The position numbers were made by a program, and so were the translations under genes. From an uncultured Opitutia bacterium (GTDB lineage Bacteria; Verrucomicrobiota; Verrucomicrobiia; Opitutales; Opitutaceae), in contig CAIJFT010000131.1 in NCBI GenBank assembly GCA_903820035.1, forward strand, positions 1 through 45,867: 45,867 nt of DNA. The letters run 5' to 3'. The first letter of the stretch is position 1. Every line of letters begins with the position of its first letter. The notes beneath the pieces are model-generated. The model had not been told where the DNA came from. It ran no database searches and was given only the letters and a program-made list of their open reading frames with translations. Positions 7,549-37,330 of this stretch are shown one piece after another.

Positions 7549-10500
7549 ATGAATCATTCGTTCTCCGGAGGTAGGCCCGCCCGTGGGGCGGGCGGCCCGG
7601 CCTCCGGCCGGGCCGACAACGGAGCCGGCCGGCAAACGCTCCTGGGCGTTGTGGTCTGGATGGCGGGCGTTGCCCTGTGCGGAGCGCAACCGCCGGATGC
7701 GCCGCTGGCCTTCAACCGCGACATCCGACCGATCCTCGCGGACAAGTGCCTGAAATGCCACGGTCCCGATGCCCGGGCCCGCCAAGGCAAGCTGCGGCTC
7801 GACCTGCGGGCGGACGCCGTCGCGCCCCGGGATGTGACGACGCCGATCGTGCCGGGCAAGCCGGAGGAGAGTGAGGTGATGCAACGGATTGAAGCGGCTG
7901 AGCCCGACGATCAGATGCCGCCGGCGGATTCCGGTCTCACCCTTTCCGCCGCGGAGAAGGCCACGTTGCGCCGTTGGATCGCCGGAGGCGCGGAGTACCA
8001 GCCGCACTGGGCCTTCGTTGCGCCGACGGCGGCGAGCCTGCCCGCGGTGCGGCAAGCGACGTGGCCCCGGCAGGGCCTCGATCATTTTGTCCTCGCGCGG
8101 CTGGAACAGGCCGGGCTCGTGCCTTCGGTCGAAGCGGACCCGGCGACTTTGCTGCGGCGCGTCTCGCTGGACCTCACCGGCTTGCCGCCGACGCCCGCGG
8201 ACCTCGACGCGTTTTTGGCGGACCGCGCGCCGCAGGCTTACGAGCGGGTGGTCGATCGGTTGCTCGCGTCGCCGGCGTATGGCGAGCGCATGGCCTCGGA
8301 TTGGTTGGATGCGGCGCGCTACGCGGATTCGAACGGCTTCTTTCGCGACAACACGCGCCAGGTTTGGCCTTGGCGCGACTGGGTGATCGGGGCCTTCAAC
8401 CGCAACCTGCCGTTTGACCAGTTTACGGTGGAGCAGCTGGCCGGCGATCTGCTCCCGGCGCCGACGGAGGCGCAGCGGATTGCGACCGGGTTTAACCGTA
8501 ATCATATGGTTACCGGAGAAACCGGAGTGATCGACGAGGAGTACCGCGTCGAGTACGTGGCTGACCGGCTGGAGACGACCGCGACCGTCTGGCTCGGGCT
8601 CACGGTCGGCTGCGCGCGGTGTCACGATCACAAATACGATCCGATCTCGCAGCGCGATTATTACCAACTGTTCGGCTTCTTCAACAGCGGGGTGGAGAAG
8701 GGGCTGGTCGCGCCGGACGATCCGCCGCCGGTGATGGACGTCGCCACGCCGGAGCAGCGGGGCGAATGGTTGCGGCGGCGCACCCTGCGGCAGGCGGCCG
8801 AGACGGCGTTCGCGACGCTCACCGCGCCGCTGGCTGAGTCGCTGGCGGCGTGGGAACGGTCCGGGGCGAAGGACCTCCGCGTGCCGTCCGACGCCGTGAC
8901 CGCGGTGGTGGCCTTTGACGGTGACGAGGGGTCGGCCGCGGATCCGGCGCTTCCCCGGGCGGTGGAACGAGGCGCCGTAGCCTATGCGCCGGGCATCGTG
9001 GGCCAGGCGGCGGTATTTGACGGCATGCAGCATCTCGAACTGCCGGCGACGATACCGCTCGCGGCCGATCAGTCGTGGACGATCGGGGTGTGGGTGAAGC
9101 CTTCGACGAGTCTCGTTTGTGTGGTGTCGAAAATCGAGCCGGCCGGCGACCGGCGCGGGTTCGAGTTGTTGTGGGCCAAGGGGCAGCTCCAGCTCAACCT
9201 CGTGGACCGTTGGATCACGAGTGCGATCGAGTTGGTTTCGACCGAATCGGTGAAACGCGGTGATTGGACGCACCTCATTGTAAGTTACGACGGTTCGCGC
9301 CGCGCGGCGGGGGTGCGCGTGTTCGCCGACGGCCAGCCGACGCCGATGACGGTCGTGCGTGATTCCCTGCGGGGATCGATCACGAATACCGAGCCGCTGC
9401 GGCTTGGCCGCCGGGACAGCGGCCTCGGTTACTACGGTCAACTGGATGAATTTCGTTTGCTGGCGCGGAGTGTGACGCGGGAGGACGCGCGGACCTGGTT
9501 TTGGGCGGAGCGGTTGCAGGGCGGTTGGGCGGTGGATCCGGCGAAGCGGGAGGCGCGCCTGCGGAAATTGATTTTGGACTGTTACGTGGAGCGCCACGGC
9601 GAACCGGCGACGCAGGCGGCGTATCGCACGGCCGAGACGACACGGGAGGCGGAAGATGCGTTTCGGGCGACCCTGCCGAAAACGCTGGTGATGGCGGAAA
9701 CGGCGAAACCCCGGTCGACCCATGTGTTAAAGCGCGGGCAATACGATGCGCCCGCCGAGCGGGTGGAGGCCGGCGTGCCGGCGATTTTTCCGCCGCTGCC
9801 CGACGAGGCGCCGCGCAACCGGCTCGGGTTGGCGCGGTGGCTGACGGCCCCATCCCATCCGCTCACCGCCCGGGTGACAGTGAATCGCCTGTGGCAGCAA
9901 TGCTTCGGCGAAGGCCTCGTCCCGACGGTGAATGACTTCGGCGCGCAGGGGGATTTGCCGTCCCATCCCGAACTCCTCGACTGGCTGGCGGTCCAGTTCG
10001 TGCACGGGGGGTGGGACGTGAAGCACGTGCTGCGCCTGCTGGTGACCAGCGCGACCTACCGGCAGACCTCGGTGCCGAGCGAAGATTTGCTGCGCGGCGA
10101 TCCGCAGAACCGCCTCTACGCCCGGGGGCCACGTTTCCGGCTGCCGGCGGAAATGATCCGTGACCAGGCGCTGGCCGCTTCGGGTTTGCTCGTGACGCGG
10201 CTCGGCGGACCGCCGGTGAAGCCCTATCAGCCGCCGGGCCTCTGGGAGGCGGTGTCGTACAACGGTGAGTTGAGTTATCGGGTGGACCGCGACGACGGGC
10301 TTTGGCGCCGCACGGTGTATTCCCATTGGAAGCGCACCGCGCCGCCGCCCGGCGTGCAGATCTTCGACGGACCCACGCGCGAGACCTGTAGTGTGCGCCG
10401 TCCGCGCACCAACACGCCGCTGCAGGCGCTGCTGCTGCTCAACGACGAAACGTTTGTCGAGGCGGCCCGGGCCCTGGCGGCGGAGGGGTTGGCACTCAAG

Positions 10501-10761
10501 TCGGCGGGCGATGACGCGCGTCTGACGGTGCTGTTCCGCCGGGTGCTGGCGCGCCGCCCGGATACCAGGGAAACGGAATTGCTGCTCGGTCTGCAGCGGC
10601 GCCAACGCGTGCGCTTCGAGGCTAACCGTGCGGCGGCCGAGGCGTTGCTCGCGGTCGGACAGTCGCCGCTCGGCCGGGGCGCGGATCCGATTGAGACGGC
10701 GTCCTGGACGATGGTGGCGCAGGCGATCCTGAACCTCGATGAAACGGTGACCCGCCGATGA
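7549..10761 (+). CDS. PSD1 / cytochrome-c-like protein with DUF1549, LamG and DUF1553 domains
   Basis: A 1070-residue secreted protein. A c-type haem motif CLKCH lies at residues 67-71 in a planctomycete cytochrome C domain ([12 protein letters not shown]). DUF1549 runs from about 170 to 380 ([20 protein letters not shown]) with a second CxxCH ([11 protein letters not shown]). An inserted LamG/concanavalin-like beta domain spans about 457-645 ([23 protein letters not shown]). DUF1553 spans about 750-1040 ([41 protein letters not shown]). The function of the family is not established; electron transfer at the envelope linked to polymer breakdown is often suggested. The start at 7549 puts a 47-bp palindromic repeat inside the leader region: residues 8-23 are encoded by it, before [16 protein letters not shown]. 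An ATG at 7660 would destroy the signal peptide. A DUF1501 gene follows within 49 bp, the usual partner. Confidence 0.9.
7571..7617. repeat. 47-bp two-hairpin palindromic element, copy A
   Basis: Contains CCCGCCC/GGGCGGG and a perfect CGGCCCGGCC/GGCCGGGCCG stem side by side. Its reverse complement matches 35586-35632 in imuB at 40 of 47 positions. It lies within the translated leader region of the PSD1 gene. Confidence 0.8.
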
Positions 10762-10810: not shown

Positions 10811-12274
10811 ATGATTCCCTTTGATCTCAACCACCCGCCGCCGGCCGACCACGCATGGACGCGCCGGCAGTTCTTCAGCCGCTCGGCGACGGGCATCGGC
10901 GCGGCGGCGCTGGCGTCGCTGCTCCAACCGCCGGGTTGGGGCGCGGCGATGCAGCCGACCCGTTTGGGCCGACCGCATTTCGCTCCGAAGGCGAAGCGCG
11001 TGATCTATCTCTTCATGCACGGCGGGCCGTCGCAGCTCGACCTCTTCGACTACAAGCCGGAGTTGCTCCGGCGCCACGGACAAGAGTTGCCGGATTCGGT
11101 GCGTGGCACGCAGCGACTCACCGGTATGACGAGCGGGCAGAAGACGTTTCCGGTCACGGCGTCGGCGTTCAAGTTCGCCCGGCACGGGAAGAGCGGCGCG
11201 TGGGTCAGCGAGTTGTTGCCGCATACCGCGGGCATCGTGGACGAGTTATGCTTCATCCGTTCGCTGAACACCGAGGCGATCAACCATGATCCGGCGGTGA
11301 CCCTCTTGCAGACCGGGCATCAGCAGCCGGGCCGCCCGAGTTTCGGCGCGTGGACGAGTTACGGCCTTGGGAGTGAAAATAAAAACCTCCCGGCGTTTGT
11401 CGTCCTTACGTCACGCGGCAGCGCGGCGCGCCCGGCGGATCCCTTGTATGCGCGGCTGTGGGGCTCGGGTTTTCTGCCGTCGAACCATCAGGGCGTGAGT
11501 TTCCGCAGCAGCGGTGATCCGGTGCTGTACCTGTCGAATCCGCCCGGCCTCGATGCGGCGGCCCGGCGGGATCAGCTCGATACGATGGGTGACCTCAACC
11601 GCCACCAGCTCGACCGGCAGATTGACCCCGAAATCGAGACGCGGATCGCCCAATACGAGATGGCGTTCCGCATGCAGACGTCGGTGCCGGGTTTGACTGA
11701 TTTGAGCACGGAGAGTGCGGCGACGTTCGAAGCCTACGGCCCGCAGGCGCGGGTGCCGGGGACCTTTGCGGCGAACTGCCTCCTGGCGCGGCGGCTCGCC
11801 GAGCGCGATGTGCGGTTCATTCAACTCTACCACCGCGGGTGGGACCAGCATTACAACCTGCCGAGCGACCTCCGCCTGCAGGCCGAGGACATCGATCGGG
11901 CGGGAGCGGCCTTGGTGCGCGACCTGAAGCAGCGCGGGCTCCTTGACGAGACGCTCGTGATCTGGGGCGGTGAGTTTGGCCGCACGACCTACAGTCAGGG
12001 CAAGCTGGAGGCGACGAACTATGGCCGGGACCACCACGGACGTTGCTTCACGCTGTGGCTGGCCGGCGGCGGGATTAAGCCGGGCGTGAGCTACGGCGAG
12101 ACCGACGAGTTTAGTTACAACGTCGTGCGCGATCCGGTGCACGTGCATGATTTGAATGCGACCCTGCTGCACCTGCTCGGCTTGGATCACCTGCGGCTAA
12201 CCTATCGCTTTCAGGGCCGTGATTTCCGGCTCACGGATGTGCACGGCAAAGTGGTGGAGGGGATTCTCGCTTGA
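10811..12274 (+). CDS. DUF1501 family secreted protein (Tat substrate)
   Basis: A 487-residue protein from the ATG at 10811 (an in-frame GTG at 10796 would add five residues). The N-terminus has a twin-arginine signal, [21 protein letters not shown]. Family landmarks of the alkaline-phosphatase/sulfatase-like DUF1501 fold are visible: [17 protein letters not shown] near residue 58, a [12 protein letters not shown] region, [31 protein letters not shown] and a C-terminal [15 protein letters not shown]. These His/Asp residues match metal-ligand positions in the superfamily, so a metallo-hydrolase is plausible but the activity is unknown. DUF1501 and PSD1 genes occur as a two-gene unit throughout Planctomycetes and Verrucomicrobia, and here they are 49 bp apart on one strand, so they are probably one transcript. 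Confidence 0.9.
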
Positions 12275-17079: not shown

Positions 17080-18675
17080 TCAATTCTGTTCGTAGCCCTT
17101 CACCGCGGCGGGTGGCGTCGGGGGCGGGGGCGTCAGGCCGTGGGCCTTCATCACGTCGTGGAAGGCGGCGATGGTGGAGAAGCCCGGCTTGAAATTCCCG
17201 TAGCGGTGACCCTCGGCGATCAATAGCGGGGTCCAGCCGCGCTTGTTCCGGGTGTTCCAGACCTCGAGCTTCGCTCCCTTGGCGTCGAGGAGTTTGATCA
17301 CCTTGGGAAAATTCGCAAAGGCCGCGCCGTGCATCGCCGTGTCGCCGGCGTTGGAGACGGCGTCGAGGTCTGCGCCGAGGGCGAGCAGGTACGTGACGGC
17401 TTCGACCGCCTCTTCATCCGTGCCCGCTTCCTCCTCCACCGAACGTGTGCCGAGACCGGCCGCGGCCATGAGCGGCGTGCAACCGTCCGCATTGCGCAAC
17501 GTCGGATCGGCGCCCAGGGTCACGAGTAATTTAAGGTACGCGGTGTCGGCGGTGTCCGCCGCGAGCATGAAGGGCGTGCAGCCTTTGCGGGCGACCCGGC
17601 CGCCGCCGGACGGACCCCCGGTGAGGCGGAGATTTAGGTCCGCGCCCTTGGCCACGAGTTTGCGGATGAGATCGTCGCTCGTAAAGAGACCCGCGCTGTC
17701 GGGGACGGGTTGGCCGTCGTCCTCGCCGCTGTCGGGCTTGCGCACCCACGTGAGCACGTGGAGCGGTGCGTAACCGGAGCGGAGATCATTGGGGTTGGCG
17801 CCGAGGTCGAGGAGCTCGGCCGCGAGGGCGAAGTGGCCGTTCTCGATGGCGATGATCAACGCGCTCGTGCCGGCGCGCGGTTGTTTGTTGCCGGGTTTCT
17901 TGGTGGGTTTGGAGGCTTCGTTGACGTCGACCCCGGCCTTCAGCAGGAAGCGCACGACTTCGGTACGGCCCGTGCGCGCGGCGAAGAGGAGCGGGGTGAA
18001 CCCGGTGTCGACTGCGGTGCGGAAGTCGGCGTCGGCGGCGATCAACTCGGCGACGACGGCGGTGTGCCCTTCGTGTGCCGCCCACATGAGGGCGGACTGG
18101 CCGCCCGCCGCGAGCTTGTCGTTCACGCGGGCGCCGCGGGCGAGCAGGGCCTGCACGACGGCGACGCGGCCGGTGCGCGCGGCGGTCATCAACGGAGTTT
18201 CACCGCCGCGGAGTGCGAGGTTCGGGTCCGCGCCGGCGTCGAGGAGCAGGTTGGCGACCGTGGCGCTGCCGTTGGTGCACGCGAGGGAGAGCGGGGTGAC
18301 GCCGTAACGGTTCGTCGCGTTTGGATTCGCGCGCGCGGCCAGCAGGGCCTTGGTCGTAGCCCCATCATCGTGTCGGACGGCCCAGTGCAGCGCTGTGGTG
18401 CCGTCGGACTGCGTGGCGTCGACGGCCGAGTCGGCGAGCAGCGCGCGCGCGGCCGCGGCGTCGCGTTTTTCGATCGCGTCGGCCAGCGGCGCCGCGGCGG
18501 CAAATCCGGAGGACAGCACACTGAGACTGGCCAGCAAAGCGGTGGTGGAACGGACCGCCGACCGGTTGAGCCGGAAGCGCGGGAAGAGGGGGCGAACCGA
18601 ACCCTTTCCGTCCTCCCCGCTCTCCCTGTTTAAGTGGTTTGCGGCCGCGAAACGGCAGTGGGTGTTCGGGTGCAT
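17080..18675 (-). CDS. Secreted ankyrin-repeat protein
   Basis: A 531-residue protein made largely of ankyrin repeats of about 33 residues: DGTTALHWAVRHDDGATTKALLAA, YGVTPLSLACTNGSATVANLL, GETPLMTAARTGRVAVVQALL, SALMWAAHEGHTAVVAELI, FTPLLFAARTGRTEVVRFLL, TSALIIAIENGHFALAAELL, then weaker ones and a Pro-rich tail. The signal-like segment TTALLASLSVLSSGFAAAA starts only near residue 44, behind a polar stretch. Part of that stretch is encoded by a dispersed repeat (see findings). The ATG at 18675 overlaps the stop of the DUF1552 gene as TGATG, which supports both this start and translational coupling. Ankyrin proteins next to DUF1552/DUF1592 genes recur in Verrucomicrobia and Acidobacteria; a scaffold for the envelope complex is inferred. 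Confidence 0.88.
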   Translation of the reverse strand: MHPNTHCRFAAANHLNRESGEDGKGSVRPLFPRFRLNRSAVRSTTALLASLSVLSSGFAAAAPLADAIEKRDAAAARALLADSAVDATQSDGTTALHWAVRHDDGATTKALLAARANPNATNRYGVTPLSLACTNGSATVANLLLDAGADPNLALRGGETPLMTAARTGRVAVVQALLARGARVNDKLAAGGQSALMWAAHEGHTAVVAELIAADADFRTAVDTGFTPLLFAARTGRTEVVRFLLKAGVDVNEASKPTKKPGNKQPRAGTSALIIAIENGHFALAAELLDLGANPNDLRSGYAPLHVLTWVRKPDSGEDDGQPVPDSAGLFTSDDLIRKLVAKGADLNLRLTGGPSGGGRVARKGCTPFMLAADTADTAYLKLLVTLGADPTLRNADGCTPLMAAAGLGTRSVEEEAGTDEEAVEAVTYLLALGADLDAVSNAGDTAMHGAAFANFPKVIKLLDAKGAKLEVWNTRNKRGWTPLLIAEGHRYGNFKPGFSTIAAFHDVMKAHGLTPPPPTPPAAVKGYEQN

Positions 18676-20120: not shown

Positions 20121-22574
20121 TCATTGCGATCCTTTCCGGCCTTCCCGTGCTTCCGGTTCAACGGCCTGATTGGCTGCCATTGCCGCGGACCGCATTTGAA
20201 ACGGCACGCTGTGCACGACGCCGAGGATGACGGCGGAGAAACGGTAATCGTCGGCTTGCGCGCGGCGCACAATGGCGCGGATCGCAGGGGCGTCGGTGCG
20301 TTCGACGCCGCGACCAAGGGCAAATGTCAGGAGTTTTTCACTCAGCGTCGCCGTGAACAACCCGGGGCGGGCGAGCAGGGCACGTTCAAGGCCGCCCACG
20401 CCCGCGAAAGTACTGCCGTCGGGGAGGCCGCCGGCGGCGTCGACCGGGCGGTGATCCTCCTCGGCGCGCCAGCGGCCGACGGCGTCGAAGTTCTCCAGCG
20501 CGAAACCGACCGGATCCATCAGGTTGTGGCAACCGGCGCAGGCGGGTTTGGCGCGGTGGGCGGCGAGTCGCTCGCGGATCGGCAGCGAGTCGGAAACGCT
20601 GCCGCTGTCGAGGGCGGGCACGTTGGGCGGCGGCGGCGGGGGCGGCTCGCCGGCGAGGTTGGCGAGGATCCAGTTGCCGCGGATAACCGGCGAGGTGCGG
20701 GTGGCGTACGAGGTGACGGTGAGGATGCTGCCCTGCCGCAGCAGTCCCCCGCGCTGCCGGGCGGGATCGTCGGCGAAGGAGACCCGCCGGAACTGGCTGC
20801 CGAAGACGTGCGGCACCTTGTAGTGGCGCGCGAGGCGCTCGTCCAGGAACGTGTAGTCCGCGCTCAGCAACTCGGTGACCGGCCGGTCGTCGCGCACGAT
20901 GCTGGCGAAGAACAACTCCGTTTCCCGCCGCATGGACTGCCGGAGGTTGTCGTCGAAATCGATGAACCGGCGGAGGTCCGGCGTGATCGCCTCGAGGCCG
21001 CGGAGGTGCAGCCATTGCGCGGCGAAATTGGCCGCGAGATTCCCTGCGCGGTCGTCGGCGAGCATCCGGCGCACCTGCGCCTCGAGCTTGGCCGGTTCGT
21101 GCAGGTCACCGCGCGCGGCGGCGTCGAGCAGTGCGTCGTCGGGCAGGCTGCTCCAGAGGAAGAACGCGAGCCGCGAGGCCAGTTCTAAATCGGAGACGCG
21201 ATAGGCCACGCCGGGAGCGACGCCCACGGGATCACTTTCGATCCGGAAGAGAAATTGCGGACTGACGAGCAGCGCACTGAGGGCGCTCTCGATCCCGGCT
21301 TCGAAGCCGCCGCCCTCGGCGGCACCGTCGCGGAAAAACTGCAACGGCCGGCGCAGGTCGTCGTCGTTCACCGGTCGGCGGTAGGCAAGGCGGGCGAGGC
21401 GGGCGAGGATCGTGCGGGCGCGGATTTCGTCCGTGGGGAGAAGCGGGCGCGAAGCCGGAGCGACGTCGGGCCGGTCGCCGAAGATGAGACGGCGGCTCGG
21501 GGTGTCGCCGCCGGTGGTGCCGGCGAACGGGCCGGTAAGGGTGACCTGGAACACCGCGGGGGCGGTGCGCGGGTGGCGGTGCATGTTGAACCGCGAGGCG
21601 AAGGGGGCGCGTTCGTTTTCGAGCACCGCGGAGGGATCCTTCGGAAACGTCACGGCGACGTCGTGCGGTCCCGCGGTGGTGGTGAAACGGAACTTCAGGT
21701 GCTGGTCGAGCACCTCGGCGTTTTTGTCCGCGCCGGGCGGCTTCACCGTGGCGAGGGCGACGCGGGCGCGGTCGAGGAGGAATTCGATTTCATGCGGCCG
21801 CTTGAGCCCCTCGACCTGTTCGTTGCGGTCCCGCTGGAGGCGCACCTGGACCTCGTATTCGCCGTCCTGCGGGAACAGATACGGAATCAGAAGACCGCCG
21901 CGCGTGCCGAGGGGGAGGCCCTCGACGTGTTCTTCCTGGGTGACATCGGGCCGCACGCGAAAGGTGTCGCCGCCCGGGGATTTGCGCGGCGTGCCGACGG
22001 CGAGGCGGGCGATTTTCTGGGCGGCGGAAACGTAGCGGTCGAGGAGCGTCGGGGAGAGGTTGCCGACGGCGACGTTGTCGAAGCCGTGGCTTGGTTCGTC
22101 GTTGGGCAGCAGGGCGGTGGCGTCGATGTTGACGCCGAGCAGGTCGCGGATCGCGTTTTGGTATTCGGTGCGGTTCAGCCGGCGGAAGGTGTCGGAGCGG
22201 CCGGGCTGCGGTCGGGCCGCCGCGGCCTGATCGAGTTGTGCGATCAAAGCCGTCGTGGCGCCGCGGTAGGTGGCTTCATCCGGTCTCGGCTCGCCGACGG
22301 GCGGCATTTGCCGGTGCTCGAGTTTGCGCACCACCGCCTCCCACGTCGCGGCGTGGGCAGCGGGGTGGGCGGGGTCGAGGGTCTCAAAATTGAGTTTGCC
22401 CTTGTTCGTGGCGCCGTCGTGGCAGTCGAGGCAGTACTGCCGGACCAACGCGGCGGTGGCAGTCGGCTCCGCGGCGAAGACGGTCACGGGGAGTCCGGCG
22501 AGGGCCAGCGCGGTGAGGGCGGCGCGCCAAGGGCGGACGTCGTTCGGTGGGAGTGAACGGAAAAGCGAGGACAT
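20121..22574 (-). CDS. DUF1592/DUF1588/DUF1587/DUF1595/DUF1585 cytochrome-type secreted protein
   Basis: An 817-residue protein. The ATG at 22574 gives a signal peptide (ALTALALAGLPVTVFAAEP); the open frame up to 22943 is not protein-like. Domain order: N-terminal haem-type CLDCH with LVRQ before it; DUF1587 (FRRLNRTEYQNAIRDLLG); a beta-rich carbohydrate-binding-like middle (GLLIPYLFPQDGEYEVQVRL); DUF1595 (LARLARLAYRRPVNDDDL); DUF1592 (ALSALLVSPQFLFRIESDP, LASRLAFFLWSSLPDD); DUF1588 (RQGSILTVTSYATRTSPVIR) with a second CxxCH, CAGCHNLMDPVGFALENFD; and DUF1585 at the C-terminus. The last dozen residues (EPEAREGRKGSQ) are encoded by a dispersed repeat. Role unproven; the two CxxCH motifs point to envelope electron transfer. 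First gene of the DUF1592-DUF1552-ankyrin operon. Confidence 0.92.
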   Translation of the reverse strand: MSSLFRSLPPNDVRPWRAALTALALAGLPVTVFAAEPTATAALVRQYCLDCHDGATNKGKLNFETLDPAHPAAHAATWEAVVRKLEHRQMPPVGEPRPDEATYRGATTALIAQLDQAAAARPQPGRSDTFRRLNRTEYQNAIRDLLGVNIDATALLPNDEPSHGFDNVAVGNLSPTLLDRYVSAAQKIARLAVGTPRKSPGGDTFRVRPDVTQEEHVEGLPLGTRGGLLIPYLFPQDGEYEVQVRLQRDRNEQVEGLKRPHEIEFLLDRARVALATVKPPGADKNAEVLDQHLKFRFTTTAGPHDVAVTFPKDPSAVLENERAPFASRFNMHRHPRTAPAVFQVTLTGPFAGTTGGDTPSRRLIFGDRPDVAPASRPLLPTDEIRARTILARLARLAYRRPVNDDDLRRPLQFFRDGAAEGGGFEAGIESALSALLVSPQFLFRIESDPVGVAPGVAYRVSDLELASRLAFFLWSSLPDDALLDAAARGDLHEPAKLEAQVRRMLADDRAGNLAANFAAQWLHLRGLEAITPDLRRFIDFDDNLRQSMRRETELFFASIVRDDRPVTELLSADYTFLDERLARHYKVPHVFGSQFRRVSFADDPARQRGGLLRQGSILTVTSYATRTSPVIRGNWILANLAGEPPPPPPPNVPALDSGSVSDSLPIRERLAAHRAKPACAGCHNLMDPVGFALENFDAVGRWRAEEDHRPVDAAGGLPDGSTFAGVGGLERALLARPGLFTATLSEKLLTFALGRGVERTDAPAIRAIVRRAQADDYRFSAVILGVVHSVPFQMRSAAMAANQAVEPEAREGRKGSQ

Positions 22575-30894: not shown

Positions 30895-33800
30895 TTACCT
30901 GAAATCATGTGACGCCTGCGCGGGCACCTCGGACGCGGTGAGGGCGGTGATCGTATCGGCTTTCACGTGGATCACGCCGTGGAGGTTCTGCAGCTTGCCG
31001 GTGATGCGCAGCGCGGGCTCCTGCGTGATCACGAGCCGGTGGGATTCGAAGAGGTGCGGGAGGACGATGACGTTGGCGATCCCGGTCTCGTCTTCGAGGC
31101 TGATGAACACGAAACCCTTCGCCGTACCCGGACGTTGGCGACAAATCACGGAGCCCGCGACGGTCAGGCGGTCGCCGTCGTTCGCCAGGGTGAGATCTGC
31201 CGCGCGCCAGACGTCCGGGAGTTGCCCGCGTACGAGTGCCATCGGGTGGGGCCCGGTGGTGAGGTCGAGGCCGGTGAAGTCGGCCCGCAGGCGTTCGGTG
31301 GGCGTCATGGGCGCGAGCGGGGATGGATGATTCGGGCTGGAATTCCGAGGCGGTTCATTTTGTCGCTCGGCGTCGGACTCCTCGGACGCGCGGAACAACG
31401 CCTCGTCCTCCGACCAGGCGGCCTCGATCTGCCACAGCGCGGCGCGGCGATGCGCGGCGAGGGCGTTGCAGGCGCCGACGGCGGCGAGGGCCCGGCGCTC
31501 AGTGGGATTGAACGCGGTGCGGCGCAGGAAGTCGGCGAGCGATGCAAACGGCGCGGTCGCGCGGGCCGCGAGCAGCGTCTGCGCGGCGGTCGCGCGCAGG
31601 CCCTTCACGTAGCGCAGGCCGATGCGGATGGTGTCGTCGGCCTCGACCGTGCAGTCCCACTCGGAGTGCACGACGCACACGGGTTTCGCCTTCAGGCCGT
31701 GGCGGCGTCCGTCCTGCAGCAGCGTCGCCGGCGAATAGAACCCCATCGGTTGGTGGTTGAGCAGGCTCGCCGTGAACTCGGCCGGCCGGTGGACCTTGAG
31801 CCACGTACTCGCGTAGGCGAGCAGCGCGAAGCTCAGCGCGTGCGATTCGGGGAAGCCGTACGCGGCGAAGGACAGCGCGGACTCGCTGACTCGTTTGACG
31901 ACGGCCTCGTTGCGGCCGTGGGCGCGGAGGGCGGTGACAAGTTTGCCGAGGGCACGTTGCAGGCGGGCGTGATCCTTCGTGAAACCCATGGCGCGGCGCA
32001 GCTCCTCGGCCTCGCCTCCGGTGAAGTCGGCCAGCTTCATCGCGAGTTCGAGCATCTGCTCCTGAAATAAAATCACCCCCAGCGTGCGGCGCAGGATGGG
32101 CTGAACGAGGTGCGCCACGCTGGCGTCGATGTAGTCGGGGGCCTCGAGACCGTTGCGGCGGCGGATGAGCGGGTGCGATAGGTTGCCGACGATCGGGCCG
32201 GGGCGAACGATCGCGACCTGCATCGCGACGTCGTAGAAGCAGGCGGGGCGCAGGCGTGGCAGCGAGGCCATCTGGGCGCGGCTTTCGATTTGAAATACCC
32301 CGACGGTGTCCGCGCGTTGCATCGCGGCGAAGGTTGCGGGGTCGTCCGGCGGGATCGTGTATAACTCGATGGGATGCCCGCGCGCGCGGCAGAGGGCGAA
32401 GGTGTCCTGCAACGCGGCCATCATGCCGAGGCCGAGGAAGTCGACCTTCACGATGCCGAGGTCCTCGCAGTCGTCCTTGTCCCACTGCACGATGACGCGC
32501 CCGGGCATGCTGGCATTCTCGAGCGGCACGACGCGGTCGAGCTGGCCCTGCGCGATGACCATGCCGCCGCTGTGCTGGCCGAGGTGGCGCGGCAGGCCGT
32601 GGATTTGTTGGTAGAGCCGGGCCATCGCTTCGGCGCGCGGGTGGTGGGCGGCGATGCCGGCCATCGCGAGTTGGCGCTGGAGTTCGAGCGTCTCCGGGAA
32701 ATCGCCGTTGGCATAGAGCCCCGAGAAGCGCTCGATCGCATCGTCGCCGAAGCCGAGGACCTTGCCGATCTCGCGCACGGCGCTGCGCCCGCGGTAGGTG
32801 ATGACGTTGGCCGTCATGGCCGCGCCGCGCGGGCCGTAGGCCTCGTAGACGCGCTGGATGACCTGCTCGCGCCGCTCGCCGCTCGGCAGATCGAGGTCGA
32901 TGTCGGGCCAGGACGGATGGCCGTCGCGCCCGACGCGCCCCTCGCTAAGGAAACGTTCGAAGAGCAGTTCGTGCTTGATCGGGTCGACCGCCGTGATGCC
33001 CAGGACGTAGCAGACGACGCTGTTGGCGGCGCTGCCGCGACCCTGCACGAGGATGCCGCGGGCGCGGGCGAATTCGCAGATATCCCACACGATCAAAAAA
33101 TAACCGCAGAACCCGAGCTTGGTGATGAGCTCGAGTTCGCGGTCCAGTTGGCGGGTGACGCGTTCGTTGAGCCGGCCGTAGCGCTTGACCGCTCCCGCGT
33201 ACGCGGTCGCGCGCAGGAAGGCCGGCATGGGTTCGCCGTGCGGGGTCGGGAAATCGGGGAAACGGTAGCCGAGGTTTTGCAGCGTGAAGCCGAGCCTCGC
33301 CTCGAGGCCGGCGGTGTGAGCAATCGCCTCCGGCAGGTCGGCGAAGAGCTGTGCCATATGGGTGCCCGATTTTACGTGGCGCTCGGCGTTGGCGGCCAGA
33401 CGGCGGCCGGCGGCATCGAGCGTCGTGTGGTGGCGCAGGCACGTGAAGACGTCGGCGGTGGCGCGGTGGGCCGGCACGGCGTAATTTACCCCGCCGGTGG
33501 CGAGGAGCGGGAGCCCCTGCGCGGCGGCGAGGTCGCGGAGGAAGGCGATCTCGCGTTCTTCGCCGCGAAGCCGGTGGCGCTGGACTTCAACGTAGAGGTG
33601 GTCACGGCCGAAGACGGTGGTGAGTTGGGCGAGGGCGGCGGCCGCGGCGGCGGGGCCGGCGGTGCGCCAAGCGCGGCGGACGGGGCCGTCTTCGTCGCCC
33701 GACAATGCGATCAGCCCCTCGCGGAAGCGGCCGAGCTCTTCCCACGTGGCGAAGCAGGGGCGCTTTCGCGCGTGCGGGTCGGGGGCATGGGGATCGGAAT

Positions 33801-34188
33801 CATCCGCCCCGTCGCCCGCCGCGTGAGCGGCGGGATCAGGACTTTCGATCCGCCCGAGGCTCCCGCCGCTCACGCGGCGGGCGACGGGGGCGCGCGGGGT
33901 GAGTTTCGCCTCGGTGATCAGCTGGCAGAGATTCTGGTAGCCGGTCTGCGACGTGACGAGCAGCGGCACGACGCTGCCGTCGGACAACGTGATCTCGGCG
34001 CCGACGCGTGCGCGCAGACCCTGGTCGCGGGCGGCACCGAAAAGCCGGGGCGCGCCGCAGAGGCCGTCGCGGTCGAGCAGGGCGAGCGCGGGCAGTTCGG
34101 CGGCGGCGGCGGCCGTCACCAGATCCTCGGGACGCGACGCGCCGCGGAGGAAACTGAAGGCGCTGCGGGCGTGGAGTTCGAAGTACAT
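30895..34188 (-). CDS. dnaE2: Error-prone DNA polymerase DnaE2 (ImuC), with an in-frame palindromic insertion
   Basis: A 1097-residue C-family polymerase, the catalytic subunit of the ImuA-ImuB-DnaE2 mutasome for translesion synthesis. The start MYFELHARSAFSFLRGAS is the canonical PHP-domain N-terminus. Visible: catalytic aspartates in WPDIDLDLPSGERRE; FCGYFLIVWDI and VQGRGSAANSVVCYVLGIT (palm); LGQHSGGMVIAQ; VKVDFLGLGMM; QVAIVRPGPI; LFQEQMLELAM; the helix-hairpin-helix region; and a C-terminal OB fold (LTVAGSVICRQRPGTAKGFVFI, DETGIANVIV). Residues about 98-145, between LCQLITEAKL and FATWEELG, are extra compared with the family; residues 100-128 are encoded by a perfect 29-bp inverted repeat. 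Another Pro/Ser/Asn-rich loop precedes the OB fold. Last gene of the lexA-imuA-imuB cassette. Confidence 0.96.
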   Translation of the reverse strand: MYFELHARSAFSFLRGASRPEDLVTAAAAAELPALALLDRDGLCGAPRLFGAARDQGLRARVGAEITLSDGSVVPLLVTSQTGYQNLCQLITEAKLTPRAPVARRVSGGSLGRIESPDPAAHAAGDGADDSDPHAPDPHARKRPCFATWEELGRFREGLIALSGDEDGPVRRAWRTAGPAAAAAALAQLTTVFGRDHLYVEVQRHRLRGEEREIAFLRDLAAAQGLPLLATGGVNYAVPAHRATADVFTCLRHHTTLDAAGRRLAANAERHVKSGTHMAQLFADLPEAIAHTAGLEARLGFTLQNLGYRFPDFPTPHGEPMPAFLRATAYAGAVKRYGRLNERVTRQLDRELELITKLGFCGYFLIVWDICEFARARGILVQGRGSAANSVVCYVLGITAVDPIKHELLFERFLSEGRVGRDGHPSWPDIDLDLPSGERREQVIQRVYEAYGPRGAAMTANVITYRGRSAVREIGKVLGFGDDAIERFSGLYANGDFPETLELQRQLAMAGIAAHHPRAEAMARLYQQIHGLPRHLGQHSGGMVIAQGQLDRVVPLENASMPGRVIVQWDKDDCEDLGIVKVDFLGLGMMAALQDTFALCRARGHPIELYTIPPDDPATFAAMQRADTVGVFQIESRAQMASLPRLRPACFYDVAMQVAIVRPGPIVGNLSHPLIRRRNGLEAPDYIDASVAHLVQPILRRTLGVILFQEQMLELAMKLADFTGGEAEELRRAMGFTKDHARLQRALGKLVTALRAHGRNEAVVKRVSESALSFAAYGFPESHALSFALLAYASTWLKVHRPAEFTASLLNHQPMGFYSPATLLQDGRRHGLKAKPVCVVHSEWDCTVEADDTIRIGLRYVKGLRATAAQTLLAARATAPFASLADFLRRTAFNPTERRALAAVGACNALAAHRRAALWQIEAAWSEDEALFRASEESDAERQNEPPRNSSPNHPSPLAPMTPTERLRADFTGLDLTTGPHPMALVRGQLPDVWRAADLTLANDGDRLTVAGSVICRQRPGTAKGFVFISLEDETGIANVIVLPHLFESHRLVITQEPALRITGKLQNLHGVIHVKADTITALTASEVPAQASHDFR
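33807..33889. repeat. Palindromic element with perfect 29-bp arms inside dnaE2
   Basis: Left arm 33807-33835 (begins CCCCGTCGCCCGCCGCGTGA), 25-base loop, right arm 33861-33889 as its exact reverse complement. It is translated on the minus strand as part of a linker in the PHP domain (residues about 100-128). Confidence 0.9.
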
Positions 34189-34327
34189 GAAGCGCGCGCG
34201 GCGCGCGTAGGGGAACGTTGGTCTGAGGTGAGGATGAAGGGCTGGGAGTTGAGCGAGGAAGGCCGGCTGCGGGGATCGATCTCTCAACCCTCAACGATCG
34301 ACGATGAGCGATGGGCTCCGCCCGCCG
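34189..34327. repeat. imuB-dnaE2 spacer with TTGAG/CTCAA repeat
   Basis: 139 bp. GGGAGTTGAGCG near 34246 and CTCTCAACCCTCAACGATC near 34283 are halves of a loose inverted repeat that recurs at 40588-40690, at the start of speA. Compatible with read-through from imuB to dnaE2. Confidence 0.45.
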
Positions 34328-35977
34328 CTAATCGTACTCCCCCTCGATGAAGTACGCCTCGCCGAGGCGGATCAGGCGGTAGAGGCCGCCGTCGGCGAGG
34401 GCGATGTCCCACTCCATCCGTGACCAGCGGCGGCCGTGTTCCCACCAGTCGCCGCTGCTGCGCCAGGGGCCGCGGAGGTGGCGGATCGCCCCGTGAAATT
34501 CGGTGGTCCAGATGTAGGTGGGCTGGCGTTCGGGTGCGGTGAACTCGAGGTTCGCCGGCAGCGGTGGACGAAAACGGCGGAGCGGCGGCCCGATGGCCGC
34601 GTGCACCGGCGGAGGCGCCGGGGGCGGTACGACGGCGGGTGGCGGGGCGAGTTGCACGGTGTCGGGGCGGTGCGTGTCGGCCAGGCGTGGCGTGCCGATG
34701 CGGCCCTCGGCGACCAGGGCCGCGACCCGCGCGAGTGTTTCCGCGAAACCGTGCGGGTCGCGTAGACTGGTGTCGAAGAGACCGTGTTGGCGCACGAGCG
34801 GGCGGACGGGGGCGAGGTGCAGGTCGACCGCGCTGACCGCGGCGGCGGTGTGCAGCGTTTCGAGGTGGGTGTGGAGCGTCCGGAAAAGAAGCTCACCGTC
34901 GGCCGTCGGCTCGGGTAGGCGAAACGCCCGGGTGTGCCGCGTTTCGTCGGCGAGTCGCAGCGTGAGCTCGAGTTCGGCGGCGACGAGTCGGGCGGCGTGC
35001 AAGTCGAGCGTCAGGCGGTCGAGTAGGCGGCGGAGGATAAAAAGCAGGGGCTCGAGTGTTTCCAGCGGGTCTTCGAATTCCATCGCGGCGGCGAAACGCT
35101 GCGGTGGCACGGCCGGGTGGAGAGGGCGCACTTCGCCGCCGGTGGCCCGTTGCCAGAGGGTGAGACCGACCTGGCCGAAGCGGCGGATGAGCTCGTCGCG
35201 GGGCAAAGCCGTGAGGTCGCCGAGGGTGTGTACGCCCCAGCTCGTGAACACCGCGGCGAGTTCCGGCGGCGGGGCGGCGACCGCGAGGGGGAGCGGGGCG
35301 AGGAAGTTTTTTTCGTCGGTGACGAGTCGGACGCCGGTGGGGGCGGAGGGAAACGGAACGGTTTCGGGCGTCGCCGGAGCGGCGCCCGCCGCGGGGAATG
35401 ATGGGTCGGACGGTGGTTCACCGAGTAGAAACAGCGGGGGCGGCGTTGGCGTTGTCGGTGCGTGGACTTGGGCGGCGTACAGGGCGAGCAGCGGGGTGCG
35501 GCCGAGTCCGGCGGTAGCGGGCAGGCCGAGTTGGGCGAGGGCGGCGACCGCGGCGGCGGCCGAGCGGAGGAGGGTGGCGCTTGATGTAGGCCCGCCCGGT
35601 GGCCGGGCCGCCCGCCCGTCGGGTGGGCCTATATCGGAGGAAGCGCTGTGACCTTTCAGGTCGGCGGTGCAAACGCCCGATGAAGTTTCCTCGACGAGCG
35701 GCGAGAGCGTGAAGGCGACGGCGAGGAGGGCGGCGCGGGCCTCGGCCTCGGCGGTAGCGCAGGGCGTGCGGATGAGGAGGGCGGGGTAACGGGCGACCGC
35801 CTGCGGGGCGGTCATTCCAGACTGGATACCGCGGGCCCGGGCGGCGGGGTTGGTCGCGAGTACGAGCGATTTTTTCTGCTGCGTCGCGAAGAGCGCGGCG
35901 GGTTGGTGCGTCGGGTCCGGCCCGGTGCGGAGCACGGCGTGCAACGCGAAGTCGGCGATGTGGAGGACGGCGAACAT
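34328..35977 (-). CDS. imuB: ImuB, inactive Y-family polymerase-like mutasome hub, with an in-frame repeat insertion
   Basis: A 549-residue protein starting MFAVLHIADFALHAVLR. It is Y-family-like but without the catalytic acidic residues: the usual DMDAF motif reads IADFALH, and the SIDE region reads VEETSSGVCTADL. That is expected for ImuB, which bridges DnaE2 and the beta clamp. Also visible: LGLPATAGLGRTPLLALYAA, VHTLGDLTALPRDELIRRFG (helix-hairpin-helix-like), LADETRHTRAFRLPEPT (little finger), and the ImuB C-terminal signature DWWEHGRRWSRMEWDIAL ... YFIEGEYD. Residues 115-132 are translated from a 47-bp palindromic element not expected in the family, and a Pro/Ala-rich stretch follows near residue 175. 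The gene is 74 bp downstream of imuA. The low-complexity tail before the C-terminus is typical. Confidence 0.94.
   Translation of the reverse strand: MFAVLHIADFALHAVLRTGPDPTHQPAALFATQQKKSLVLATNPAARARGIQSGMTAPQAVARYPALLIRTPCATAEAEARAALLAVAFTLSPLVEETSSGVCTADLKGHSASSDIGPPDGRAARPPGGPTSSATLLRSAAAAVAALAQLGLPATAGLGRTPLLALYAAQVHAPTTPTPPPLFLLGEPPSDPSFPAAGAAPATPETVPFPSAPTGVRLVTDEKNFLAPLPLAVAAPPPELAAVFTSWGVHTLGDLTALPRDELIRRFGQVGLTLWQRATGGEVRPLHPAVPPQRFAAAMEFEDPLETLEPLLFILRRLLDRLTLDLHAARLVAAELELTLRLADETRHTRAFRLPEPTADGELLFRTLHTHLETLHTAAAVSAVDLHLAPVRPLVRQHGLFDTSLRDPHGFAETLARVAALVAEGRIGTPRLADTHRPDTVQLAPPPAVVPPPAPPPVHAAIGPPLRRFRPPLPANLEFTAPERQPTYIWTTEFHGAIRHLRGPWRSSGDWWEHGRRWSRMEWDIALADGGLYRLIRLGEAYFIEGEYD
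35586..35632. repeat. 47-bp two-hairpin palindromic element, copy B, in imuB
   Basis: GCCCGG-TGG-CCGGGC followed by GCCCGCCCG-T-CGGGTGGGC. 40 of 47 bases match the reverse complement of 7571-7617. Wider flanks GCGCTT and AAGCGC (near 35578 and 35641) are also inverted. Confidence 0.8.
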
Positions 35978-36050: not shown

Positions 36051-36689
36051 TCAGCCGACGGCTTGGAGCCGTTGGCGGCGGAGTGCCGGCGCGAGTTCGG
36101 CGGCGAGTTCGGGGCGCGGCCGGTCCAAGGCGGTGACGTCGACCCCGGCGGTGAGTTCAAAGCGCAGCTGCGCACTGGGCACGCCGGCGCGGGGCGTCTC
36201 CACGACGCAGGCGAGCGCGGCGGGTTCGACGGCGCGTTGTAAGCGGTACCATGTGGTGGAGGGGATGCGACGGAGCTCGGCGGCGGGAGCGCGGCGCAGG
36301 TCGAGGACGACGAGCCCGAGGTTGGCGTCGCGCACGAGTAGGTCGGCCGCGCTTAGCGCCATCGTGGTGTTGGCGCAGCGGACCCACACGAGGTGGGCGA
36401 GAAGGTCGGGGGCGAATGAACCCGGATCGAACGAGTCGTGGCTGTCGATCAAGGCGACGCGGATGCGGGTGGCGCGGGTGGCGACGAGCAGTTGGCCGAG
36501 CAGGAGGTGTCCGCCGCAACTCGGCGTTGCGCAGACTAATTCGGTGATCGCGCCCACCGGCAGCCCGCCCGTCGCGGCATCGAGCACGGGAATGCCCGTG
36601 ACCAGCGTCGCGCCGACAGGGCGGGGGACGGTGGGGAAGCGCTCGGCCAGAAGATGGCGGAGCGTCGCGAGTTTGGCGGGCAGAGGCAT
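36051..36689 (-). CDS. imuA: ImuA, RecA-like mutasome accessory protein
   Basis: A 212-residue protein starting MPLPAKLATLRHLLAERFP. The RecA-like core is visible (TGIPVLDAATGGLPVGAITELV, RIRVALIDSHDSFDPGSF, ALSAADLLVRDANLGLVVLDL). The usual Walker A (GxxxxGKT/S) is absent: the corresponding loop reads CATPSCGGHLLLGQLL. RecA/SulA-related ImuA proteins are known to be weakly conserved, and in well-studied mutasomes ImuA and ImuB work with DnaE2 on damaged templates. The position first in imuA-imuB-dnaE2 supports the name. The frame is open to 36857 but that part is repeat-rich and not needed. Confidence 0.85.
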   Translation of the reverse strand: MPLPAKLATLRHLLAERFPTVPRPVGATLVTGIPVLDAATGGLPVGAITELVCATPSCGGHLLLGQLLVATRATRIRVALIDSHDSFDPGSFAPDLLAHLVWVRCANTTMALSAADLLVRDANLGLVVLDLRRAPAAELRRIPSTTWYRLQRAVEPAALACVVETPRAGVPSAQLRFELTAGVDVTALDRPRPELAAELAPALRRQRLQAVG

Positions 36690-37074: not shown

Positions 37075-37330
37075 GTGCTGGTTGGGTGATGGGATAAAAA
37101 GCGGGTGGTTATTTTTGGGCAGGCAGTCGCCCCGGTGGAAAAGGTGCGGTGGAATTGATCGGCGGCTCAGTGCGCCGACGCAAAAATCAGTTTAACAGGA
37201 AGAGCGGGGAGAGCGGAAAGAAGCGGACTGGCTTCTCCCCGCTCTCCCCGGCCTTCCGGTTCAATTTTTAGGAATGAGCGCAGCCGGCCTAAAAATGGAG
37301 TCGAGGTCATTTAGTCCCTTGGTCCGCCGC
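37075..37330. repeat. lexA-to-small-ORF spacer with a GGGGAGAGCGG hairpin and TTCCGGTTCAA repeat
   Basis: 256 bp. CGGGGAGAGCGG (near 37205) and CCGCTCTCCCCG (near 37239) are inverted, followed by GGCCTTCCGGTTCAATTTTT. That string matches repeats at the end of the DUF1592 gene and in the ankyrin leader. The hairpin could attenuate plus-strand reading, but on the lexA (minus) strand no T-tract follows, so read-through is possible. Confidence 0.5.

Follow-up and report, generated by a model that had tools for sequence, protein, structure and literature searches.

Palindromic repeats that are translated in frame inside genes are known from Rickettsia as the Rickettsia palindromic elements (RPEs). 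REPs carrying a GTAG tag were reported in 2013 from the PVC superphylum, with an enrichment in Opitutus terrae (PMC3733652). As described there, the GTAG-17 elements of O. terrae form head-to-head dimers with spacers of 1-2 bp, intragenic REPs encode 20-30 residues, O. terrae having the largest number of GTAG ones, and REP-tagged genes tend toward replication and repair, including uvrA and DnaE2 (PMC3733652).

Here, we analyse a stretch of 45,867 nucleotides from an uncultured bacterium of the Opitutaceae (contig CAIJFT010000131.1; the whole stretch is referred to as the window), in which a 47-bp element of two hairpins lies within imuB and recurs in the leader of a PSD1 gene. The original prediction took this element for a member of an RPE-like family that inserts into coding sequence, donates peptide and is moved by an unseen transposase. 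Our analysis instead makes it very probable that the element is a head-to-head dimer of a GTAG-type REP (a BIME or REPIN), most likely spread by a RAYT, that has inserted in frame in imuB.

A dispersed REP family of the GTAG type that forms REPIN-like pairs

The core element in imuB occupies positions 35586-35632 (47 bp, no strand assigned) and consists of two REP units arranged head to head, the first (35586-35608, forward strand, GTAG tag at 35586) without mismatch to the family pattern and the second (35610-35632, reverse strand) with two mismatches and a tag that has decayed to ATAG. The copy in the PSD1 gene leader is likewise a head-to-head pair of 47 bp (7571-7617, no strand assigned). 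The predicted match between the imuB copy and the reverse complement of the PSD1 gene copy was confirmed, with 40 identical positions out of 47. When the window was shuffled 100 times in two-base blocks, the highest match was 31, and the top score elsewhere in the real window, the two copies excepted, was 32, a shifted self-match at 7591. Folding also confirmed two adjacent GC hairpins in each copy, with one long hairpin as an alternative fold of the imuB copy (RNA parameters). As judged by eye, the imuB copy has one stem mismatch per hairpin in addition to the altered tag.

Reading the genome copies side by side yielded a repeat unit of 23 nt, GTAGGCCCG(S)CCGNNGG(S)CGGGC. A first search of the source genome (6.05 Mb, 469 contigs) placed the element at no fewer than 14 sites and a second search (E up to 1) at no fewer than 48, the window copies being counted in both. 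With up to two mismatches, the 23-mer has 136 genome matches (62 + 74) as opposed to 0 + 2 for a reversed-pattern control, which confirms the further genome copies that had been predicted. Seventy-two distinct elements were collected, from the loci around the 100 of 136 matches that were listed and from some places of the second search. Across 108 units, gathered with a GTAG-bearing pattern that allowed two mismatches, the tag positions are G in 104, T in 95, A in 92 and G in 106 units, and a G stands three bases before GTAG in 88 of the 108, often as part of GAT or GAG. Pairs in opposite orientation make up 47 of the 72 elements (nine pairs measuring 46-48 bp and 23 measuring 72-73 bp), and the remainder are single units. 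In the REP-rich genome G043, from a related genus, most elements (56/76) are pairs of 47 bp. With its imperfect hairpin in the range of 20-40 nt and 5' GTAG, its high and dispersed copy number and its opposite pairing, the dispersed repeat belongs to the GTAG type of REPs and forms REPIN-like pairs, the window copies being of the compact form. The claim that a verrucomicrobial genome harbours a dispersed palindromic family of a kind other than that of Rickettsia is supported by these GTAG-tagged REPs.

Among 120 genomes of the taxonomic family (source genome included) that were scanned for the REP, 49 have at least one match, most of them at numbers like those of their own control. Besides the source genome, the REP-rich ones are G043 (228 matches), G026 (51), G112 (32), G067 (26), G091 (17) and G065 (15); a few further genomes of the family have 6-9 matches, and the four other genomes of the same genus that were searched have 0, 1, 3 and 7.

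Coding insertions are rare within the REP family

Placement relative to genes was assessed by a codon-usage test, for which the frame has to stay open across the element and the flanks on either side have to look coding; the test was trained on genes of the window and is not a gene annotation. By this test, coding sequence runs through two of the 72 sampled elements, both of them in the window, versus 1122 of 1440 random positions (78%) in the same loci; at a stricter threshold, none of the 72 elements is coding. The corresponding figures are 0 of 76 elements versus 522 of 760 random positions in G043, and 2 of 30 versus 218 of 300 in G026, where the two calls are single REPs (loci L315 and L325). 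With 70 of 72 sampled copies failing the test, the family is mainly intergenic, and the gap between 2/72 and 78% marks coding insertions as rare survivors.

These counts bear on the predicted RPE-like family, one adapted to enter coding sequence and to donate peptide. Such a family would account for the ~21 residues added in frame to ImuB and for a different palindrome that lies in frame in dnaE2 (see below), but the REP family is almost wholly non-coding in place (2/72 copies called as coding, with 0/76 in G043 and 2/30 in G026), and its tag is GTAG, whereas RPE-4 and RPE-6 are classed among the CGTC repeats in the 2013 study (PMC3733652). In addition, the relatives of this ImuB belong to the Opitutaceae and Verrucomicrobia, not to the Rickettsia/Wolbachia lineage. 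Membership in the RPEs themselves is ruled out by tag, host and copy distribution, and we regard an RPE-like family with a coding-inserting habit as very improbable beside the reading as a GTAG-type REP.

As a separate observation from G026, the single REP at positions 1496-1523 of locus L315 (contig C49) lies apparently in frame within an open frame of 731 residues with coding-like flanks.

An in-frame REP pair in imuB

The imuB CDS (34328-35977, reverse strand) encodes 549 residues with the Pfam domains IMS and IMS_C. The original prediction rightly located the element in imuB, while the residues it gave, 115-132, are corrected to 116-131 by codon arithmetic. Orthologue alignments delimit a net insertion at 35585-35650 (reverse strand; approximately ImuB residues 110-131, with ambiguous limits), which amounts to 22 residues (66 bp) against L194 and to 21 residues (63 bp) against most orthologues. 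The alignment comprised 62 loci (29 from relatives and 33 from named contigs) with 53 distinct proteins; of the 62 rows, three (L068, L215 and L221) gave no information at the site. The inserted segment is absent from all 59 informative rows (56 verrucomicrobial, 3 actinobacterial): 50 of the 56 verrucomicrobial rows lack 21 residues, L194, L208, L209 and L212 lack 22, and L071 and L072 as well as the actinobacterial rows differ in length in their own way at this site. The insert is absent in the same-genus genomes G006, G081 and G104 (L048, L069 and L073). The segment being missing from 56 of 56 informative verrucomicrobial rows, the predicted in-frame read-through that adds peptide to ImuB is well supported. 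As the closest ImuB orthologues are only 69% identical, the insertion event is not datable.

An AlphaFold model of ImuB based on 21 sequences (mean pLDDT 80.4, pTM 0.54) places the inserted segment in a predicted low-confidence loop, with residues 111-130 at pLDDT 52-55 between a strand (102-106) and a helix (132-149), and a profile alignment matches the insertion region to the part of DNA polymerase IV that follows the palm strand. If this were an ordinary ImuB loop of hypervariable sequence, GC-rich and palindromic by chance, such a position would fit, as would the length variation seen in L071, in L072 and among the actinobacterial rows. Copies of this 47-bp sequence are, however, dispersed genome-wide, and orthologues sharing the peptide without the palindrome were looked for and not found in any of the 59 informative rows, none of which has a comparable peptide, so that we assign this explanation a negligible probability and keep to an inserted REP pair.

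The imuB copy is bracketed by a 5-bp direct repeat, GCGCT (left copy 35577-35581, right copy 35643-35647, forward strand), whose copies are 66 bp apart, equal to the insertion length against L194. The repeat is seen at the imuB copy only and does not adjoin the core; we regard it as no more than a candidate target duplication. Such a duplication might be expected if the element were a MITE moved by a DDE transposase of the cut-and-paste type, but the left GCGCT lies 4 bp and the right one 10 bp from the core, a length of 63 bp is implied by 50 of the 59 informative rows and one of 66 bp by four, and other copies, inspected by eye, have no obvious repeats in their flanks, which show only a weakly GAT-like extension. 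Together with the RAYT linkage of the REP family described below, these points make a MITE highly unlikely and favour the REP pair. Both 63 and 66 bp exceed the 47-bp core, and the extra bases are incompletely explained by the element consensus. Most likely, the ~21-22 residues added to ImuB are tolerated rather than useful, and they would then be selectively neutral.

In genome G111, two other GTAG-type palindromes of the form GTAGCCGGGCTC (at 1390 and 2599 of locus L068) surround an ImuB with a non-aligning N-terminal part, possibly another REP beside or in imuB.

The copy in the PSD1 gene leader

The second copy belongs to a PSCyt1/PSCyt2/LamG/PSD1 gene (7549-10761, forward strand; 1070 residues from the ATG at 7549), in whose frame codon arithmetic bears out the predicted residues 8-23. 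Homology of relatives to the PSD1 protein mostly begins at residue 22-55, which puts the REP in the leader of the protein. A few alignments begin earlier, at residues 3-17; no REP was found in the five loci of such relatives that were checked, and on re-alignment these relatives begin at residue 7 at the earliest and show no convincing match over the REP peptide. The copy sits in a non-homologous signal-peptide leader.

The copy may alternatively be untranslated, with the gene starting downstream and the REP lying in its 5' untranslated region, a reading that we consider quite possible though short of an even chance. It agrees with the point at which homology mostly begins, with the early-starting relatives, which have neither the REP nor a match to its peptide, and with the ATG at 7549, upstream of which no clear ribosome-binding site is seen by eye; many N-terminal REPs may also be extragenic according to the 2013 study (PMC3733652). 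It is countered by the in-frame starts that follow (a GTG at residue 35, an ATG at residue 38), which by eye leave too short a signal peptide and lose its basic end, so that a protein start at 7549, with the REP translated, is plausible. Of the predicted peptide donation to the PSD1 protein, the leader position therefore stands, whereas the translation is only plausible and the leader that would receive the peptide is non-homologous.

Linkage of the REP family to RAYT genes

The source genome contains a RAYT fragment (C141:11269-11550), the N-terminal half of which is missing, with a REP directly before it (11240-11262) and a REP pair after it (11566-11637). A Y1_Tnp gene in G026, with one in-frame stop, has REPs on both sides, and part of it after the stop is 69% identical to the fragment of the source genome. 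Against NCBIfam NF047646 (REP-associated tyrosine transposase; cut-off 80), the source-genome fragment scores 69.1 bits and the G026 piece 71.8 bits. An intact RAYT of 154 aa, at 116 bits versus the same cut-off, is present in G079 between variant REPs, which have four mismatches from the source-genome pattern, and G024 shows an arrangement similar to these RAYT-between-REPs loci. Such REPs lie near Y1_Tnp loci in 0 of 29, 1 of 24 and 4 of 30 cases, the last figure recounting the G026 locus. None of the 29 same-genus loci L141-L169, which are part of the Y1_Tnp matches in 27 genomes, has a REP at up to three mismatches, and no REP-flanked RAYT was seen in the 12 loci examined in G043, the most REP-rich relative. 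An intact RAYT partner was looked for and not found in the source genome, the remnant there being N-terminally truncated. RAYT linkage is thus seen for the source-genome remnant and G026, and with variant REPs for G079. We hold with fair confidence that the transposase behind the REP family is a RAYT, and we infer that this RAYT carried out the transposition. The unseen transposase of the original prediction has thereby gained a likely class, represented in this genome by a truncated remnant.

Two further Y1_Tnp genes of the source genome were considered as partners and rejected, one on contig C126 (351 aa), the nearest REP pair of which lies as far off as ~830 bp upstream, and a truncated one on contig C10, which is flanked by other palindromes. 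The former occupies positions 1360-2415 of locus L044 and neighbours what we take to be a nucleotidyltransferase/HEPN-like gene pair; the genus has many open frames of about its length. The latter is an IS200-like transposase frame at a contig end (~1350-1410 of locus L045) that runs into a different palindrome, GGCGGTTTTCCAACCGCC; the two may represent a further REP family and the transposase belonging to it.

A second REP pair in the same mutagenesis cluster

An imuA-like gene (36051-36689, reverse strand; NF033429, 39 bits, below the cut-off of 150) lies upstream of imuB, and the window also encodes dnaE2, an error-prone DNA polymerase III alpha (30895-34287, reverse strand, given as ORF limits with the start not fixed; NF004225, 1114 bits). 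Inside dnaE2 are two units of a second REP family, unit 1 (GTCGCCCGCCGCGTGAGCGGCGGG) at 33811-33834 on the forward strand and unit 2 at 33862-33885 on the reverse strand. They form a perfect 29-bp inverted repeat (arms 33807-33835 and 33861-33889) that is in frame, covers ORF residues 133-161 and is the sole fully complementary inverted repeat among the best 25 of 30 by length. The element is a head-to-head pair of another GTAG-type REP, GTAGCCCGCSGCGTGAGCSGCGGG, in which GTCG stands in place of GTAG. When up to four mismatches are allowed, 325 kb of own-genome loci, which are not a random sample, contain eight more matches, two of them exact, whereas the control has none. One imuA-imuB-dnaE2 cluster hence holds two unrelated GTAG-type REP pairs, in ImuB and in DnaE2.

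The DnaE2 loop that holds the REP pair ranges from 16 to 58 residues in the window and 54 orthologue rows. Stems were compared for 19 distinct loops of at least 38 residues with 60 reference windows from the same gene region. In the loops of the window, L050, L057 and L213, the stem is longer than in all 60 reference windows and was reached by 0, 5, 1 and 1 of 200 shuffles, respectively, and the other 15 of the 19 loops show nothing notable or a weak stem excess. Since 19 loops were tested, the palindromes in L050, L057 and L213, with stems of 10-11 bp, are suggestive only. The loop peptide ACPERSRRD of L215 is of a kind commonly produced when a widespread repeat palindrome is read through, which may indicate that the DnaE2 loop takes up repeats in other lineages.

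A further palindrome of the window, at 37191-37264, is an imperfect 34-bp inverted repeat (82%), with similar 26-nt stretches at 18608-18633 and 20136-20161; a strict-expression scan of the own-genome loci found no other instance.

The double insertion, taken together with the 2013 trend toward DNA synthesis and repair (PMC3733652), suggests that REPs and damage-response genes may be linked non-randomly; the cluster itself came to attention through the choice of locus in the original prediction. We think it unlikely, if worth stating, that the arrival or retention of REP pairs in the mutagenesis gene cluster is non-random and that their insertion or tolerance could couple to damage-response polymerases. 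One reason could be that DNA damage leaves the polymerase genes open or single-stranded, another that mutagenesis is tuned by the added loops. Alternatively, it may simply be that insertions are tolerated where a gene is dispensable and the site is in a loop.

Discussion

According to the explanation we favour, the element would be a non-autonomous mobile REP pair spread by a RAYT, an HUH single-strand nuclease. One such dimer would have entered imuB in a loop that connects a palm strand to a helix. The insertion may have survived because of this loop position, because its length is a multiple of three and because its frame avoids the TAG within the GTAG. The PSD1 copy would have landed in a signal-peptide leader.

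The imuB locus is a clear example of how a non-autonomous mobile palindrome becomes protein, complete with insert-free orthologues and a transposase remnant, and it illustrates how rarely REP insertions in genes are kept. It is a fresh instance of a phenomenon published in 2013, which included Verrucomicrobia and DnaE2 (PMC3733652). ImuB does not occur in the main text of that publication (PMC3733652), and no print precedent for an ImuB with a REP insertion surfaced in the open-access literature searched. What is still of interest is the pair of insertions within a single mutagenesis cluster, the rest being well explained and mostly known.

Compared with known systems, the imuB element resembles the RPEs in being a palindrome that is translated in frame in a gene (PMC3733652), but it differs in tag and hosts, and coding insertion is the exception in the REP family found here. 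With the REPINs and RAYTs described from Pseudomonas, the family shares the alternating orientation of REPs (BIMEs/REPINs) and a dedicated RAYT (PMC3116915, PMC2817692), although the host belongs to another phylum and the RAYT is a truncated remnant. It is like the GTAG families reported for O. terrae in its GTAG hairpin, its head-to-head dimers, its mostly intergenic placement with occasional copies inside ORFs and its RAYT linkage, and the 47-bp form in imuB resembles the GTAG-17 dimers of that species with their spacers of 1-2 bp (PMC3733652).
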